From contig NZ_JAFBCM010000001.1 of the NCBI RefSeq assembly GCF_016907715.1, positions 5,022,001 to 5,086,000 of the forward strand: a stretch of DNA of 64,000 nt. Direction: 5' to 3'. Each line of letters starts with the position of its first letter. Within the stretch, counting starts at the first letter, position 1. Below, piece by piece: positions 7,163-58,983 of the stretch. Below the pieces are notes generated by a model, which saw nothing but the letters and a program-made list of their open reading frames with translations, was not told where the DNA came from and made no database searches. The position numbers were made by a program, and so were the translations under genes. The stretch comes from Tenggerimyces flavus. GTDB lineage: Bacteria; Actinomycetota; Actinomycetes; Propionibacteriales; Actinopolymorphaceae.

Positions 7163-7219
7163 TTTGAATGAAGGGCACCTTCATTCGAACCTATTGAATG
7201 AAGGTGCCCTTCATTCAAA
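7163..7219. repeat. Family-1 hairpin, copy 1 (stem variant A)
   Basis: Perfect 24-bp arms (7163-7186, 7196-7219) around the 9-nt loop GAACCTATT. Each arm is itself nearly palindromic (GAATGAAGG-GCA-CCTTCATTC), so a cruciform or clover form is possible. It lies in a divergent intergenic region, so it is not simply a terminator. Confidence 0.92.
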
Positions 7220-23699: not shown

Positions 23700-23854
23700 C
23701 GGGCACCTCTTCTGCGAATGAGCGGCCGGTGCTGGCTGGCAACCGACTTGTTGGACAGATCTCGGGATAGAGACCGAGATCTGTCCAACAACTCACGGCA
23801 GCGCACAGGTGGCTGGTGGTGGTGGGGTGGCGGGGCGGAACGTGACGCTCATCG
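23674..23854. repeat. 28-bp direct repeat of the GNAT gene start flanking a palindrome
   Basis: Positions 23674-23701 (first codons of the GNAT gene) and 23827-23854 are identical at 26 of 28 bases. The family-3 palindrome sits between them. The upstream copy has no usable reading frame beyond about ten codons and is a remnant. Confidence 0.75.
23748..23791. repeat. Dispersed 44-bp palindrome, family 3, copy 2
   Basis: Perfect 18-bp arms (23748-23765 and 23774-23791) with loop GATAGAGA. Its reverse complement matches the copy at 117-160 in arms and loop. It lies about 49 bp upstream of the GNAT start. Confidence 0.88.
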
Positions 23855-23885
23855 ACGCCTACTCGCCTTCCGTGGCTTGCCCCGT

Positions 23886-23940
23886 TTGAATGAAGGGCAC
23901 CTTCATTCAATAGGTTGGAATGAAGGTGCCCTTCATTCAA
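23886..23940. repeat. Family-1 hairpin, copy 2 (stem variant A)
   Basis: Perfect 23-bp arms (23886-23908, 23918-23940) around loop AATAGGTTG, the complement of CAACCTATT. It is inverted relative to the copy at 7163 and ends 10 bp before the amidohydrolase stop codon. Confidence 0.92.
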
Positions 23941-39993: not shown

Positions 39994-40046
39994 TGGGTCG
40001 GGGGCACCCTCGTCCCATAGGTTCGGACAAGGGTGCCCCCGACCCA
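39994..40046. repeat. Family-1 hairpin, copy 3 (stem variant B)
   Basis: 22-bp arms (39994-40015, 40025-40046) with one G-T wobble, loop CATAGGTTC (complement GAACCTATG). Stem sequence TGGGTCGGGGGCACCCTCGT differs from variant A but keeps the loop and the GGGCACC/GGTGCCC positions. Confidence 0.9.
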
Positions 40047-40243
40047 AGCTCAGGTGGCGGCGACGTTTTGGTGAGGTTGGCGGCGACGTTTTGGGTGAGG
40101 GGCACCTTGGTCCCATAGGTTCGGACAAGGGTGCCCCCGACCCAAGCTCAGGTGGCGGCGACGTTGGCGGTGAGGTTGGCGGCGACGTTTTGGGTGAGGG
40201 GCACCTTGGTCCCATAGGTTCGGACAAGGGTGCCCCCGACCCA
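40047..40243. repeat. Two tandem 98-99 bp units, each ending in a family-1 hairpin (copies 4 and 5)
   Basis: Units 40047-40144 and 40145-40243 are almost identical and contain GGTGGCGGCGACGTT blocks followed by a variant-B hairpin (arms 40092-40113/40123-40144 and 40191-40212/40222-40243, loop CATAGGTTC in both). Together with copy 3 they fill the 317-bp interval between the convergent marR and DUF559 genes, which contains no gene. Confidence 0.88.
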
Positions 40244-41330: not shown

Positions 41331-41381
41331 GGGTCGGGGGCACCCTCGTCCGAACCTATGGGACGAGGGTGCCCCCGACCC
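41331..41381. repeat. Family-1 hairpin, copy 6 (stem variant B)
   Basis: Perfect 21-bp arms (41331-41351, 41361-41381) around loop GAACCTATG. It lies between divergent genes, upstream of both, so it is not a terminator. The left arm differs from copy 3 only by a wobble-resolving base, supporting selection for pairing. Confidence 0.92.
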
Positions 41382-41398
41382 AAACGAGGGGCGCGGAC

Positions 41399-46899: not shown

Positions 46900-47298
46900 C
46901 TACTGGGAGATCCACATCGAGCTGAAGTAGTCGTTCCAGTCGAAGCCCATGACCGCCCACTCGCCGTTGGGCTCGACGCCGCTGAACGGGCGGCCGGAGT
47001 CGGGCGGGGCGTCGATGAAGAGCGTGACCCACTTGCCGGTCCGGTTCTTGACCGAGCTGACAGCGTCGTTGAGCCGGTGGCCGTTGCCGAACGTCCACGA
47101 GGTGAAGCTGCGAAACTCGCAGTAGTTGCTGCCGCATCGGAAGTCGGCCACGCCGCCGCCGAAGCGCTCGTGCTCGAACAGGCAGACCTCGTTGGCATCG
47201 CATCTTCCATTCCCCGGCGCCGCGGCGTACGCGGGTCCTGGAGTGAGGAAGATCGCGAGGAGACCGAGGATCGCGGCCAGAGCGATTTTTCGTACCAT
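46900..47298 (-). CDS. Secreted peptidase inhibitor family I36 protein
   Basis: A 132-aa secreted protein with signal peptide (KIALAAILGLLAIFLTPGPAYA) and a crystallin-like inhibitor I36 domain with Cys pairs (RCDANEVCLFEHERFGGGVADFRC and NYCEFRSF). The founding member is a Streptomyces metalloprotease inhibitor. ATG 47298 follows AGGAGGTGC. A 95-bp piece of this gene is copied at 52067-52161. Confidence 0.88.
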   Translation of the reverse strand: MVRKIALAAILGLLAIFLTPGPAYAAAPGNGRCDANEVCLFEHERFGGGVADFRCGSNYCEFRSFTSWTFGNGHRLNDAVSSVKNRTGKWVTLFIDAPPDSGRPFSGVEPNGEWAVMGFDWNDYFSSMWISQ

Positions 47299-52055: not shown

Positions 52056-52161
52056 TTACCAGCGCCCCCACTCGCCGTTGGGCTCGACGCCGCTGAACGG
52101 GCGGCCGGAGTCGGGTGGGGCGTCGATGAAGAGCGTGACCCACTTGCCGGTCCGCTTCTTG
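52056..52161 (-). pseudogene. Fragment of an I36 inhibitor gene
   Basis: Positions 52067-52161 copy 46956-47050 of the I36 gene at about 93 of 95 bases. The frame reads RTGKWVTLFIDAPPDSGRP and ends EPNGEWGRW-stop; signal peptide and the first half are missing. The right border falls directly before the phosphotransferase start. A recent partial duplication. Confidence 0.88.
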
Positions 52162-54222: not shown

Positions 54223-54275
54223 CGGCACTGTCTTGCCAGGCGTAAGAGGAGCGAGCGGGGTCGCGTGCTGGTGGG

Positions 54276-54288
54276 TACGGTGCGGGCT
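54276..54288 (+). promoter_or_regulatory. Leaderless -10 box of AlkZ-like gene 2
   Basis: GGGTACGGT with TACGGT at 54276-54281, exactly 7 nt before ATG 54289; same hexamer and spacing as the AlkZ-like gene at 43765 and soxR. Confidence 0.6.
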
Positions 54289-55410
54289 ATGACGGTGACC
54301 GCACGAGCGCTCAACCGCGCCACGCTCGCGCGGCAGTTGCTGCTGGAGCGCTCCACGTTGCCGGTCGCCGACGCGGTAAGGCAGATCGTCGGCATTCAGG
54401 CTCAACAACCCGCGTCGCCTTATGTCGCGTTGTGGAACCGACTCTCCGGTTTCGATCCCACCGACCTGGACGCCGCGTTCGCCGAGCTGCGGGTGGTCCG
54501 GTCGACGCTGATGCGGATGACGCTGCATGCCGTGCACGCCGACGACTATCCGACGTTCCGCGAGGCCGTCGATCCGGGACTGCGCGCATCGAGGCTGGAC
54601 TCCCGGTACACGATCAGCGGACTGAGTCCCGCGGACGCAGACGCGCTGACGCCCGAGCTGCTGGCGTTCGTTGCCCAGCCGCGCACTGCCGCCGAGTGTG
54701 CGCGATGGCTCGAACGCAGGTTCGAGCGTGAGTTGCACGAGGGTGCGTGGTGGGGTGTGCGCTCGTACGCGCCGATGCTGCGGGCACCGACGGGTGCGCC
54801 GTGGCAGTTCAACGCGAAGGTCTCCTACGTCGCCCCGCCGGCGCGGCCGACCGTCGGCGACGCCGGCGTTTCCGCCGAGTCGCTGAAGGTTCTGCTGCAG
54901 CGTTATCTGGCGGGCTTCGGGCCGGCGTCGATCGCGGACATGGCGCAGTTCACGCTGGTGCCGCGGACGCGGGTGAAGGCCGCGGTGCGGGAGCTCGAGC
55001 TGGAGCCGGTGACCGACGTTCTGTACGACGTACCGGACGCGCCCCGACCGGACGAACGCACGCCCGCGCCGCCGCGGCTGATGGCGATGTGGGACAGCAT
55101 CCTGTTCGCGTACGCGGATCGCAGCCGTGTCATTTCGCCCGAGTACCGCAAGCACGTGACCCGTGTGAACGGTGACACGCTGCCGACGCTGCTGGTCGAC
55201 GGGTACGTGGCCGGCGTCTGGCGCGCGGTCGACGGGGGAATCGAGGCGACGGCGTTCCATCCGTTGCCGGCGAAGGTCTGGAAGGGGCTCGAGACGGAGG
55301 CCGGCGGACTGTTGGCGCTGCTGTCCGAACGAGAGCCGCGCGTGTACAGCTTCTACGAACGCTGGTGGAGCCAACTCCCCCACGCCGAGGTGCGGGTACT
55401 CGGCGGCTAG
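54289..55410 (+). CDS. Winged-helix DNA-binding (AlkZ-like, HTH_42) protein 2
   Basis: A 373-aa protein of the AlkZ/YcaQ-like family. ALNRATLARQLLLERSTLPVADAVRQIVGIQAQQPASPYVALW carries the Gln-x-Gln element (QAQ) where AlkZ has its catalytic QxQ motif. MTLHAVHADDYPTFREAV and RLMAMWDSILFAYADRSRV are also conserved family stretches. Probable DNA glycosylase for bulky or crosslinked lesions, though many members are untested. ATG 54289 is preferred over GTG 54265 because of the leaderless box. Differs from protein 1 (43765), which lacks QxQ. Confidence 0.85.
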   Translation: MTVTARALNRATLARQLLLERSTLPVADAVRQIVGIQAQQPASPYVALWNRLSGFDPTDLDAAFAELRVVRSTLMRMTLHAVHADDYPTFREAVDPGLRASRLDSRYTISGLSPADADALTPELLAFVAQPRTAAECARWLERRFERELHEGAWWGVRSYAPMLRAPTGAPWQFNAKVSYVAPPARPTVGDAGVSAESLKVLLQRYLAGFGPASIADMAQFTLVPRTRVKAAVRELELEPVTDVLYDVPDAPRPDERTPAPPRLMAMWDSILFAYADRSRVISPEYRKHVTRVNGDTLPTLLVDGYVAGVWRAVDGGIEATAFHPLPAKVWKGLETEAGGLLALLSEREPRVYSFYERWWSQLPHAEVRVLGG

Positions 55411-55667: not shown

Positions 55668-56663
55668 CTACTCGGAGAACTCCTTGCGCAGGTGCACGAT
55701 CGTGGTCTCGTAGCGGCCGAACGTGCCGTCCGGCAGTTGCTGGTCCCAACCGCCGGGCTTCCGCGCGTACTCGACGTAGCCGAGGCGTTCGTACAGAGCC
55801 TGCGCACGGGGGTTGTTCGTCTCGGCTCCGATCTCGATGCGGCGCACTCCCCTGGCTCGAATCCGCCGCTCGCACTCCTCGACCAGGGCGGTGCCGATGC
55901 CGCACGAGTGGAGCAGCCCCTCGACGTCGAACATGGTCAAGGTGCCGGCGCCGGGATCCTGCTCGTAGTCGATCACGCCCTTGCCGACGAGTACGCCGGA
56001 CGGCAGGCAGGCCGTCACACACTCCGCGCCGCCGGACGGGACGCGGTCGAGCACCTTGATGACGGCCTCGACATGGCCGGGATACGGTGCCCACGGGCCG
56101 GGCAGGTCGGCCGGTCCCAAGTCGCGGATCGTCAACCCCAGCAGGAGATCCGAGCTCCCGCCAACGTCGCGAGCTGGCACGAGCTGCTTGTTCAGATCGA
56201 CCAGCATGGTCTCGTAGCGGCCGGTGCTGCCATCGGGCAGCTCGTAGTTCCACCCGCCGAGCTTCCGCGCGTACTCGACGTACCCGAGGCGTTCGTACAG
56301 CGCCTGCGCGCGAGGATTGTCCGTCTCGACGCCGATCTCCGCGCGGGACAGTCCCCTGGTCAGGATCCGGCGCTCGCACTCGACGATCAGTGCGGTGCCG
56401 ATGCCACACGACTGCACCAGGCCGTGCACGGAGAACATGATCAACGTTCCCGCGCCCGGGTTCTCGTCGTACCGGAGAGCGCACTTGGCGACCGACCCAC
56501 CAGAGGGGAGACAGACGAGAAGATTCTCCGCCTCGCCGGCGGACGCGAGCTCGAGCATCTCCGCCACGGCCTTCAGATGGCCGGGGTCCCCCGACCACGC
56601 CAGGCCGGGCAGGTCGGCCGGGACCATGTCGCGGATCGTCAACCTCAGCAGGAGATCCGACAT
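55668..56663 (-). CDS. Tandem-duplicated GNAT acetyltransferase
   Basis: A 331-aa protein made of two full GNAT domains in line (about 1-165 and 166-331). Each has the acetyl-CoA loop (SCGIGTALIVECERRI and SCGIGTALVEECERRI) and the PRAQALYERLGYVEYARK motif, identical in both. The internal identity shows duplication of one domain. Both loops look intact, so both halves could be active. ATG 56663 lies 6 nt after TACGTT on the minus strand, suggesting leaderless translation. Substrate unknown. Confidence 0.9.
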   Translation of the reverse strand: MSDLLLRLTIRDMVPADLPGLAWSGDPGHLKAVAEMLELASAGEAENLLVCLPSGGSVAKCALRYDENPGAGTLIMFSVHGLVQSCGIGTALIVECERRILTRGLSRAEIGVETDNPRAQALYERLGYVEYARKLGGWNYELPDGSTGRYETMLVDLNKQLVPARDVGGSSDLLLGLTIRDLGPADLPGPWAPYPGHVEAVIKVLDRVPSGGAECVTACLPSGVLVGKGVIDYEQDPGAGTLTMFDVEGLLHSCGIGTALVEECERRIRARGVRRIEIGAETNNPRAQALYERLGYVEYARKPGGWDQQLPDGTFGRYETTIVHLRKEFSE

Positions 56664-56848
56664 CCCGCGAACGTAGCAACCCGCTCCACCCGCGTCGACC
56701 GAATTCTTCGACCCCACGCATGGCCAAGCTTTCAGGGACCGTTTACCGACATGACTCCTGACGCAACCGTCGCATTAGCCAGTGTCGCGACCATGGAGAA
56801 GTAGCTTTTGCGGACAGATGTGTTCTCTTGCGGGGAAGGCAGGGGCCC

Positions 56849-57271
56849 ATGGCCAGCGGTGAGTACCTGCGGTACGTCGCGCTCGGCGACAGCCAGACCG
56901 AGGGGCTCGGCGACGGGGACGAGATCAGAGGACTGCGTGGCTGGGCGGACCGGCTCGCGGAGCTGGTCGCCGCGTTCAGCCCGGAGTTGTCGTACGCGAA
57001 CCTGGCGGTACGTGGTCGCGTCGCCGCGCAGGTGTTCGAGGAGCAACTCCCGGCGGCGTTGGCGATGCGCCCGGATCTGGCGACGGTGGTGGCGGGTGTC
57101 AACGACCTGTTGCGCCCGCGGTGGGACCTGGACGCGGTGATGCGTCACCTCGAGGCGATCTTCGCCGCGCTCACGGCGCAGGGTGCCCGGGTGGCGACGA
57201 TCGCACACGGCCGTGATCATGTACGTGATCATGAAGGTAACCCGCCGTATACGACCAGTTTGGCTTCATGA
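56849..57271 (+). pseudogene. SGNH/GDSL hydrolase truncated by a family-2 repeat
   Basis: A 140-aa frame with the GDSL block VALGDSQTEGLGDGD (nucleophile Ser) and VAGVNDLLRPRWD (block III GxND). Intact relatives are about 200-260 aa and end with a DxxH block, absent here. From residue about 123 the frame runs through the palindrome at 57213-57287 and stops inside it. The 3' half of the gene is gone. ATG 56849 follows AAGGCAGGGG. Confidence 0.82.
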
Positions 57272-57287
57272 TCACGTACATGATCAC
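57213..57287. repeat. Family-2 palindromic element, copy 3
   Basis: Perfect 24-bp arms (57213-57236, 57264-57287) and a 27-nt spacer resembling that of copy 2. It joins the truncated SGNH gene to the AraC gene; the AraC stop codon (57284-57286) is part of the right arm. Confidence 0.92.
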
Positions 57288-58051
57288 TGGGCTCGGAGGG
57301 CGCGAGGTGAGGTGCCGAGCTCGCGGCGGCAGGTCTTGTTGAACGCCTGCAGGTCGCCGATCCCCACGGCCGTCGCGATCGAGGCGATCGGCAGGGTGGA
57401 CTCACGGAGCAGGTGGCGGGCTCGTTCCATCCGGCGCCGGCGTACGTGCGCCACGATCGTGTCGCCGGTCTCGGCGCGGAACAACCGGGTCAGGTGGTTG
57501 TGCGAGACACCCGCCGCCGCGGCGATGTCGGGGACCGCCAACGGCCCGGCGAGGTGGGACTCGATGTACGCGACCGCCGCCGCTACCGCCGCGTGCGGCC
57601 GCTCGGACCGAGACGGCGCCGCCAGCGACGCCACCCGCCACAGCGCGGCCCAGACATCGGACTCGGTACGGCGCGGGGCGCTCGACCACGCCGCGATCGC
57701 CGACAACAACAGTGCCGACAGTATCGGCGTCTCTGCCCCGGCGTCCTGCATGATCGGCAGCGACCGCGGCTCCCCCGTCCGGCCGAGCCGCAGGTGCGCG
57801 TACAGGTGCTGCGACCGCCCCTGATACCGGTACTGCACCACCGCGCCCGGCGGCACCAGGCTCACGTGACCGGGACGGATCGGGTACGGCGTGCCGTCGA
57901 CGGTCAGCTCCGCCACGTACTGGTAGAGGTGCAGCTGCCACAGGTCCGGCAGCCGGAACACGTCCCGGTCCCGCTTCACCCCGTGCAGCCCGACGCCGAC
58001 GTTCGCGACCTGCGGCGGCCGGTCCAACCGCACGGTTATGGACACCACCAT
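57284..58051 (-). CDS. AraC-family transcriptional regulator
   Basis: A 255-aa regulator: N-terminal cupin-like sensor (YQYVAELTVDGTPYPIRPGHVSLVPPGAVVQYRY) and C-terminal double helix-turn-helix (AVPDIAAAAGVSHNHLTRLFRAETGDTIVAHVRRRRMERA, then IASIATAVGIGDLQAFNKTCRRELG). It diverges from the PhyH dioxygenase gene and probably activates it. Its TGA stop is supplied by the family-2 repeat. Confidence 0.92.
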   Translation of the reverse strand: MVVSITVRLDRPPQVANVGVGLHGVKRDRDVFRLPDLWQLHLYQYVAELTVDGTPYPIRPGHVSLVPPGAVVQYRYQGRSQHLYAHLRLGRTGEPRSLPIMQDAGAETPILSALLLSAIAAWSSAPRRTESDVWAALWRVASLAAPSRSERPHAAVAAAVAYIESHLAGPLAVPDIAAAAGVSHNHLTRLFRAETGDTIVAHVRRRRMERARHLLRESTLPIASIATAVGIGDLQAFNKTCRRELGTSPRALRAQ

Positions 58052-58158
58052 GGTGAAAACGTACCAGTACTGGGTGAATACAACCCACGCGTGAAGGCCC
58101 GAAGCCGCCTAGCGTGAGTGGTATCCGACCACCACGTTGGCCAACACTGGAGCGGCCC

Positions 58159-58983
58159 ATGACAGCTCATCCCGCCCGCGACCACCTGCTCACCTCCGTG
58201 CAGCTCGCCCACTTCGTCTCGCACGGATCGGTGCGGATGGACGCGATCGTTCCCGACGACCTGAACGAGCAGGCGATCGAGGTCTTCAAGGCGGGCATCC
58301 CCGCGGTCCCGTACGGCACACCGATCCCCGAGGCGTTTCCCGAGGGCTCGTTCGCCCGCCGACTCATCGAGCTGCCGCAGGTCGCGGGCGCGATCCACAG
58401 CCTGGTCGGCCCCGGCCCGACGATCGACCACCACGCCGTCCACATCCGCCGACCGAACGAGGGGCACGCGCAGCCGCTGCACGGCGACGCGATCATCGAC
58501 GCCCGGCTCGACGCGTTCGACGTCCAGCTCATGTACTACCCGCAGAAGGTCACGCTCGACATGGGCGGGACACTGAGCGTGCCGGGCAGCCACCTGCGGC
58601 GGACGAACGAGAGCGACACCGGCCGCTACCAGAACCTGCGCGGGCAGACGCGCCTCACCTGCCCGGCCGGGACCGTGGTGATCCTGCATCACGGGATCTG
58701 GCACGGCGGGCGGCGGAACGACAGCGACATCGAGCGCTACATGTTCAAGATCCGCTTCAACCCGACCGTGAAGCAGCGCCGGCTGTGGAACACCGACGAC
58801 CTGAACGACCCGGAGGTCGGCGCCGAACTGCGGACGCGGTTCCCGTGGTACGAGGGCGCGACCGGGCGGCTCGAGATCTACAACCGGGTACAGATGTGGC
58901 GGGCGCTGACCGGCGACGACACGTTCGACCTCGACTACTGGGTCACCCGCGTGTCCAACCGTCCGCAGCGCGTCGTGGTGTGA
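58159..58983 (+). CDS. Phytanoyl-CoA dioxygenase (PhyH)-family oxygenase
   Basis: A 274-aa Fe(II)/2-oxoglutarate-dependent oxygenase. The iron triad is visible: His108 and Asp110 in PLHGDAI and His182 in HHGIWHGG; Arg191-region residues could bind 2-oxoglutarate. TLSVPGSHLRRTNE is typical of the double-stranded beta-helix. ATG 58159 (MTAHPARD) has GGAG upstream. Such genes next to AraC-type sugar-sensing regulators often act on small metabolites; the substrate is unknown. A 99-aa gene follows by 11 bp. Confidence 0.88.
   Translation: MTAHPARDHLLTSVQLAHFVSHGSVRMDAIVPDDLNEQAIEVFKAGIPAVPYGTPIPEAFPEGSFARRLIELPQVAGAIHSLVGPGPTIDHHAVHIRRPNEGHAQPLHGDAIIDARLDAFDVQLMYYPQKVTLDMGGTLSVPGSHLRRTNESDTGRYQNLRGQTRLTCPAGTVVILHHGIWHGGRRNDSDIERYMFKIRFNPTVKQRRLWNTDDLNDPEVGAELRTRFPWYEGATGRLEIYNRVQMWRALTGDDTFDLDYWVTRVSNRPQRVVV

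Follow-up and report, generated by a model that had tools for sequence, protein, structure and literature searches.

REP/BIME elements, as part of PMC3733652 describes them, come with RAYT transposases, are tagged with GTAG or CGTC, and occur in many palindromic copies that lie mostly 3' of genes, between convergent or unidirectional genes. MITEs and other small mobile repeats, such as RUP, ERIC and the enterobacterial RU-1/2/3, are short inverted-repeat units with many dispersed copies (sections of PMC2229807 and PMC2759123), and RU units are found at gene 3' ends, where they replace or extend the C terminus (PMC2759123, same section). Dispersed copies of IS and REP are regarded as recombination hot spots in a portion of PMC11708052, which also reports deletions adjacent to IS. 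Palindromes are treated as sites of breakage and deletion in parts of PMC3315005 and PMC4245961; the 460-bp palindrome in the latter part is far larger than the 75-bp interrupted palindrome considered here.

The locus lies in a window of 64,000 bases, the whole stretch of DNA that was analysed (positions 5022001-5086000 of a single 8,519,422-base contig). In this window, an SGNH/GDSL-type frame and a convergent AraC-family gene end in the same palindromic element (Table 1). We favour, with a probability of about one-half, the reading that the SGNH frame is a gene remnant: the element would already have stood at the AraC stop when a deletion, or another rearrangement that loses DNA, took the 3' half of SGNH. 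The finding is minor as far as the single gene is concerned, an ordinary remnant beside a repeat and an instance of ordinary genome wear, and it corrects the tempting reading of an element inserted into a gene. The arrangement resembles the IS-adjacent deletions in the portion of PMC11708052 cited above in that a gene remnant abuts a repeat with no target-site duplication; unlike in those deletions, the repeat has no transposase gene and the junction is 10 bases away.

Table 1. Features of the locus in window coordinates, with the basis of each assignment
Feature	Position	Strand	Basis
SGNH/GDSL 5' remnant; homology to relatives over 118 codons, retains GDSQTEG and GVND	56849..57202	+	Pfam; 73-80% identity to 80 loci; end of homology
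Continuation of the SGNH frame by read-through; filler, arm and loop supply 22 codons, stop in right arm	57203..57271	+	Frame, alignment
Ten filler bases; no match to SGNH nor (beyond the last two) to the repeat family	57203..57212	.	Comparison with 80 relatives; flank information
Palindromic element of 75 bp; a 27-nt loop flanked by 24-bp arms, each made of two 12-mers	57213..57287	.	Inverted-repeat search, alignment of copies
AraC-family regulator, essentially complete; TGA stop is palindrome bases 2-4 read from the AraC side	57284..58051	-	Pfam; orthologues
PhyH-family dioxygenase gene, divergent from AraC	58114..58983	+	Pfam; pair conserved in 9/9 relative loci

The palindromic repeat family

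The two arms (57213-57236 and 57264-57287) form a perfect 24-bp inverted repeat, and the stretch folds strongly both as DNA (z -6.9) and as RNA (z -6.0). The arm sequence occurs six times in the window, where no occurrence is expected, and with up to 3 mismatches it is found 154 times forward and 148 times reverse in the genome (reversed control, 0 + 0). Full copies that are perfect number 62, at least 104 copies have perfect inner 12-mers, and several copies share identical loops. For comparison of copies we used 63, namely those of the window and of 60 regions chosen from the listed matches; these are mostly perfect rather than a random sample, and the imperfect ones are confined to the initial third of the chromosome. 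A T/A position of the arm pairs in 51 of the 63 and is unpaired in 12. Outside this genome the repeat is scarce: among 57 relatives searched at ≤2 mismatches, the same-family genome G005 has 20 + 13 arms and G015 has one, with none in the six remaining same-family genomes. In 296 genomes of the class, one (G168) carries a single copy and the 294 others besides G000 carry none; G005 was outside this draw.

No Rfam match was obtained in 56600-58200, and among the papers listed in literature searches no title or opening of an abstract concerned this repeat. The palindrome is a REP/MITE-like repeat without a name. It shares with the REP/BIME elements in the cited part of PMC3733652 the many palindromic copies, their position mostly 3' of genes and their placement between convergent or unidirectional genes; unlike them, it is 75 bp long and built of 12-mers. 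GTAG or CGTC at the stem foot, a feature of REP with RAYT, was present in 0 of 63 left arms, and a search for RAYT (Y1_Tnp, PF01797) gave 0 matches in the genome itself, with a control search that was positive in 5 of 14 genomes. Like MITEs, RUP, ERIC and RU as the consulted sections of PMC2229807 and PMC2759123 present them, the family consists of short inverted-repeat units in many dispersed copies; unlike MITEs and RU, it has a different sequence and no cognate transposase was identified, Y1_Tnp being the sole domain sought. For the target-site duplication typical of MITEs, no flank repeat rose above shuffles in 72 tests over the 63 copies (largest z 2.1).

Larger and related structures were also seen. 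At 1426-1524 of region L010 (genome 451740-451838), the left arm has four 12-mers and the right arm two, so that arms grow by whole 12-mers. The G005 copies in L165, L167 and L169 are larger, with arms about 130 to 150 bases apart, inner half-arms between them and a differing 12-mer spacer (GATCATGATC). The window also contains long palindromic repeats of other families, at 7164-7219 and 23885-23940, at 39994-40045, 40090-40143, 40189-40242 and 41331-41382, and at 114-163 and 23745-23794; some have a common CATAGGTTCG-like centre and different arms.

The truncated SGNH gene and its junction with the repeat

The frame at 56849-57271 (+) matches Pfam Lipase_GDSL_2 with an E value of 1.9e-18 over profile positions 1 to 111 of 178. 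A preliminary description had stated that the gene keeps its GDSL and GxND blocks, ends within the palindrome and has lost the catalytic DxxH block, and all of this was borne out. Like the SGNH/GDSL family (PF13472), the frame has GDS, in a block I with the catalytic Ser (GDSQTEG), and GxND (GVND); unlike the family, it has no DxxH and is missing the final third of the profile, and its stop at 57271 is inside the right arm of the inverted repeat. The missing block reads DRLH in 80 of the 80 relatives aligned. An apparent retention of DxxH through the palindrome-encoded residues R-D-H arose when MAFFT slid these three under the block through long gaps and was read as chance. Without DxxH the product should not work as a hydrolase.

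The same description proposed a comparison with relatives that carry a full-length gene. A scan of genome contigs confirmed 270 relatives, of which the best 80 were retained; they belong to Streptomyces, Streptosporangiales and others and are 73 to 80% identical over the homologous part. When the frames were followed from the first matched position, 75 of the 80 proved complete (255 to 291 aa), and the other 5 are cut by contig ends after 212 to 288 codons. No short frame was found among the best 80 of 270, and hence no relative with the same short gene and no palindrome, which the preliminary description had named as the observation that would speak against it. As it also suggested, the lost part was sought elsewhere in the genome, with the second half of a relative as the query; the four matches at E ≤10 were not convincing (best, 0.087). 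The truncation is real, and the missing half is thus gone from the assembly rather than moved. The description's claim that the 3' half is absent beyond the element, so that DNA must have been lost, holds; since that half did not turn up elsewhere in the genome, a simple inversion between copies is disfavoured as well.

No decay is visible in what is left. Over 67 columns conserved at ≥95% the remnant has 1 change, and intact relatives have 0 to 3. The lack of decay across 118 codons would suit a functional short protein rather than a remnant, but we regard this as very improbable, since the protein has neither the catalytic DxxH block nor the final third of the fold, 0 of 80 relatives are short and the tail is encoded by the repeat. 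The pattern of identity would also suit a fragment that was truncated before it was imported or relocated beside the AraC-element end, so that nothing was deleted at the locus itself: compared with the 73 to 80% for Streptomyces and Streptosporangiales, the best identity is 58% within the 57 relatives searched and 49% in the family. However, the genus is sampled by one genome, and the SGNH 5' end still aligns with relatives together with about 20 upstream bases; an import is, in our judgment, rather improbable.

The gene is not, as the preliminary description had it, cut off exactly at the palindrome. In all 89 DNA alignments the homology to SGNH ends at 57202 (codon 118) at the latest, ten bases before the palindrome. 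Compared in register with SGNH of the 80 relatives, 57193-57202 matches at 5 to 10 of 10 positions, and 57203-57212 matches at just 1 to 3 of 10 in all 80. The residues expected next are proline in 80 and aspartate in 79 of the 80. Over the 63 copies of the repeat, a flank preference is clear only at the two bases beside each arm (0.37 and 0.93 bits), and the next twelve bases carry 0.00 to 0.27 bits. Given this narrow preference, about eight junction bases belong to neither the gene nor the repeat. The filler could also be SGNH sequence that drifted after the truncation, which would allow a direct insertion.

On the other side, the convergent AraC 3' end does lie in the same palindrome, as had been claimed: its stop (57284-57286) falls within the arm that also holds the SGNH stop. 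The protein ends R-A-Q-stop, and five same-family orthologues end R-A/S-G-H-stop, one residue longer. In three of these five, a TGA with TC after it is likewise the native stop, aligned with the TGATC of the repeat. Accordingly, one of 19 AraC-side DNA alignments (L066) extends to 57270 because the TGATC of the repeat coincides with the old TGATC; the other 18 begin at 57290 or beyond. By these comparisons, AraC is essentially intact and undamaged. In nine AraC loci compared for synteny, only AraC and PhyH are common and the DNA downstream of AraC differs between genomes; a breakpoint in this nonconserved region is therefore plausible.

Gene ends at copies of the repeat

With a simple gene caller, 30 of the 63 copies were placed between convergent, 22 between tandem and 8 between divergent genes, and 3 inside a predicted frame; these three may be miscalls. 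Stricter calling left 56 gaps that carry an element (27 convergent, 22 tandem, 7 divergent). The 27 of 56 convergent gaps compare with 17 of 195 among element-free gaps of the same stretches (Fisher p 3.6e-10). The element was within 12 bases of the nearest gene end in 18 of 49 cases, against 29% for random placement in gaps, and within 40 bases in 34 of 49, against 56%; both values differ little from random.

Of 22 gene ends that lie at most 15 bases before the element or inside it, 9 (AraC and 8 others) use the first TGA of the element as the stop, and a single one, SGNH, reads through. Use of this TGA by 9 of 10 frames would have a p of 3.6e-4 if frames were random, in a test picked after the data had been seen. 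For 10 other gene ends at copies, taken from the 22, completeness was checked, and 8 look complete or nearly so: those of OppD-like, aldo-keto reductase, glyoxalase, xanthine dehydrogenase-like, MmyB-like regulator and APH/homoserine-kinase-like proteins, of a DUF6596 sigma factor that is near-complete at 3 to 7 codons shorter than its orthologues, and of an F420 LLM oxidoreductase whose last residue is identical in 6/6 orthologues. The two others were uninformative; one belongs to a VanY-domain protein, the other to another LLM protein, whose match ends at 260 of 314. SGNH is the only clear mid-domain truncation among the gene ends examined. The family usually sits at gene ends and does so without harm.

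In orthologues, the native stop is TGA for the LLM protein (6/6, at the same residue) and for the glyoxalase (3/3). Replacement of a native TGA by the element is not a general rule: orthologues of two genes end with TAG (6/6 loci) and with TAG or TAA (2 loci). When the element was excised in silico, 2 of the 9 gene ends that take their TGA from it (both in L215) reached a stop within 5 codons; the remaining ones needed at least 9 codons or met no stop in the stretch read. Insertion into the loop of a hairpin or terminator was also considered and rejected; the flanks look palindromic by eye, but over the 63 copies the observed values were below the shuffled ones at every length.

A broader reading, which we consider possible but doubtful, is that these repeats form a mobile family, restricted to the lineage, whose members settle at the stop codons of convergent genes, provide the TGA themselves and act as an end signal in both directions; rearrangement at such a docking site would then have left the SGNH remnant as a by-product. 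The enterobacterial RU units are a precedent for a repeat that encodes the last codons of a gene (part of PMC2759123). The ends of the repeat are the stop codons of essentially complete genes, and if this reflects an insertion rule rather than selective tolerance, the family would be a useful case for short palindromes that spread without an obvious transposase.

History of the locus

In our preferred history, a copy of the lineage-specific repeat would first have come to sit at the AraC stop codon, a common position for the family. A deletion, or some other rearrangement that loses DNA, would then have taken the last half of SGNH and the DNA up to near the repeat, with endpoints in SGNH codon 118/119 and at a point some 10 bases before the repeat, and the truncated frame would from then on have read through the repeat to the stop in the right arm. 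The simplest history has the repeat at AraC first because its place there is usual, AraC has been left working, and the damage is ten bases off on the other side. We infer this order of events and a single deletion, and likewise a role of the hairpin in provoking it; the genus is sampled by one genome, no empty or full-length site of the locus was seen, and at the locus itself no deletion scar or partner endpoint could be named.

The preliminary description had offered two routes, insertion followed by deletion or recombination between two copies. The loss of DNA common to both stands; insertion into SGNH as the first step is not supported, since the homology ends 10 bases outside the element and the repeat commonly occupies sites like the AraC stop. 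Recombination between an element in SGNH and a second one at the stop of AraC would in one event remove the 3' half of SGNH together with all DNA between and leave a single element, and the raw material exists in at least 104 near-identical copies, several with identical loops; part of PMC11708052 regards dispersed copies of IS and REP as recombination hot spots. However, SGNH should then continue up to the arm and instead ends 10 bases short, and a prior insertion into the middle of a gene is required, a position called for 3 of the 63 copies, maybe wrongly. A shared stretch of 75 bp is, moreover, short for homologous recombination. We regard this route as unlikely. Insertion into SGNH with an outward deletion that removed the 3' half as far as the AraC stop would explain why the SGNH frame ends inside the element, and deletions beside mobile elements are known for IS (same portion of PMC11708052). 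But the deletion must have ended at the AraC stop so that the element supplies the AraC TGA, as it does at 8 other gene ends, and ten non-SGNH bases separate gene and element, which makes this sequence of events quite unlikely in our estimate. Both routes fit less well than a deletion beside a pre-existing element because both predict SGNH up to the arm, although drift over ten bases could hide it.

Around the locus, a few further features were noted. A 95-base direct repeat (46956-47050 and 52067-52161) is 98% identical over a distance of 5.1 kb, and the GNAT protein encoded at 55668-56717 carries two acetyltransferase domains in tandem, whose 300-base halves are 76% identical in DNA. In G005, about 4 kb separate a 48% relative of SGNH and a 34% relative of the gene at 54265-55410 in the window (L239, 9414-9725 and 13984-14916), a pairing that may reflect an old neighbourhood or chance.
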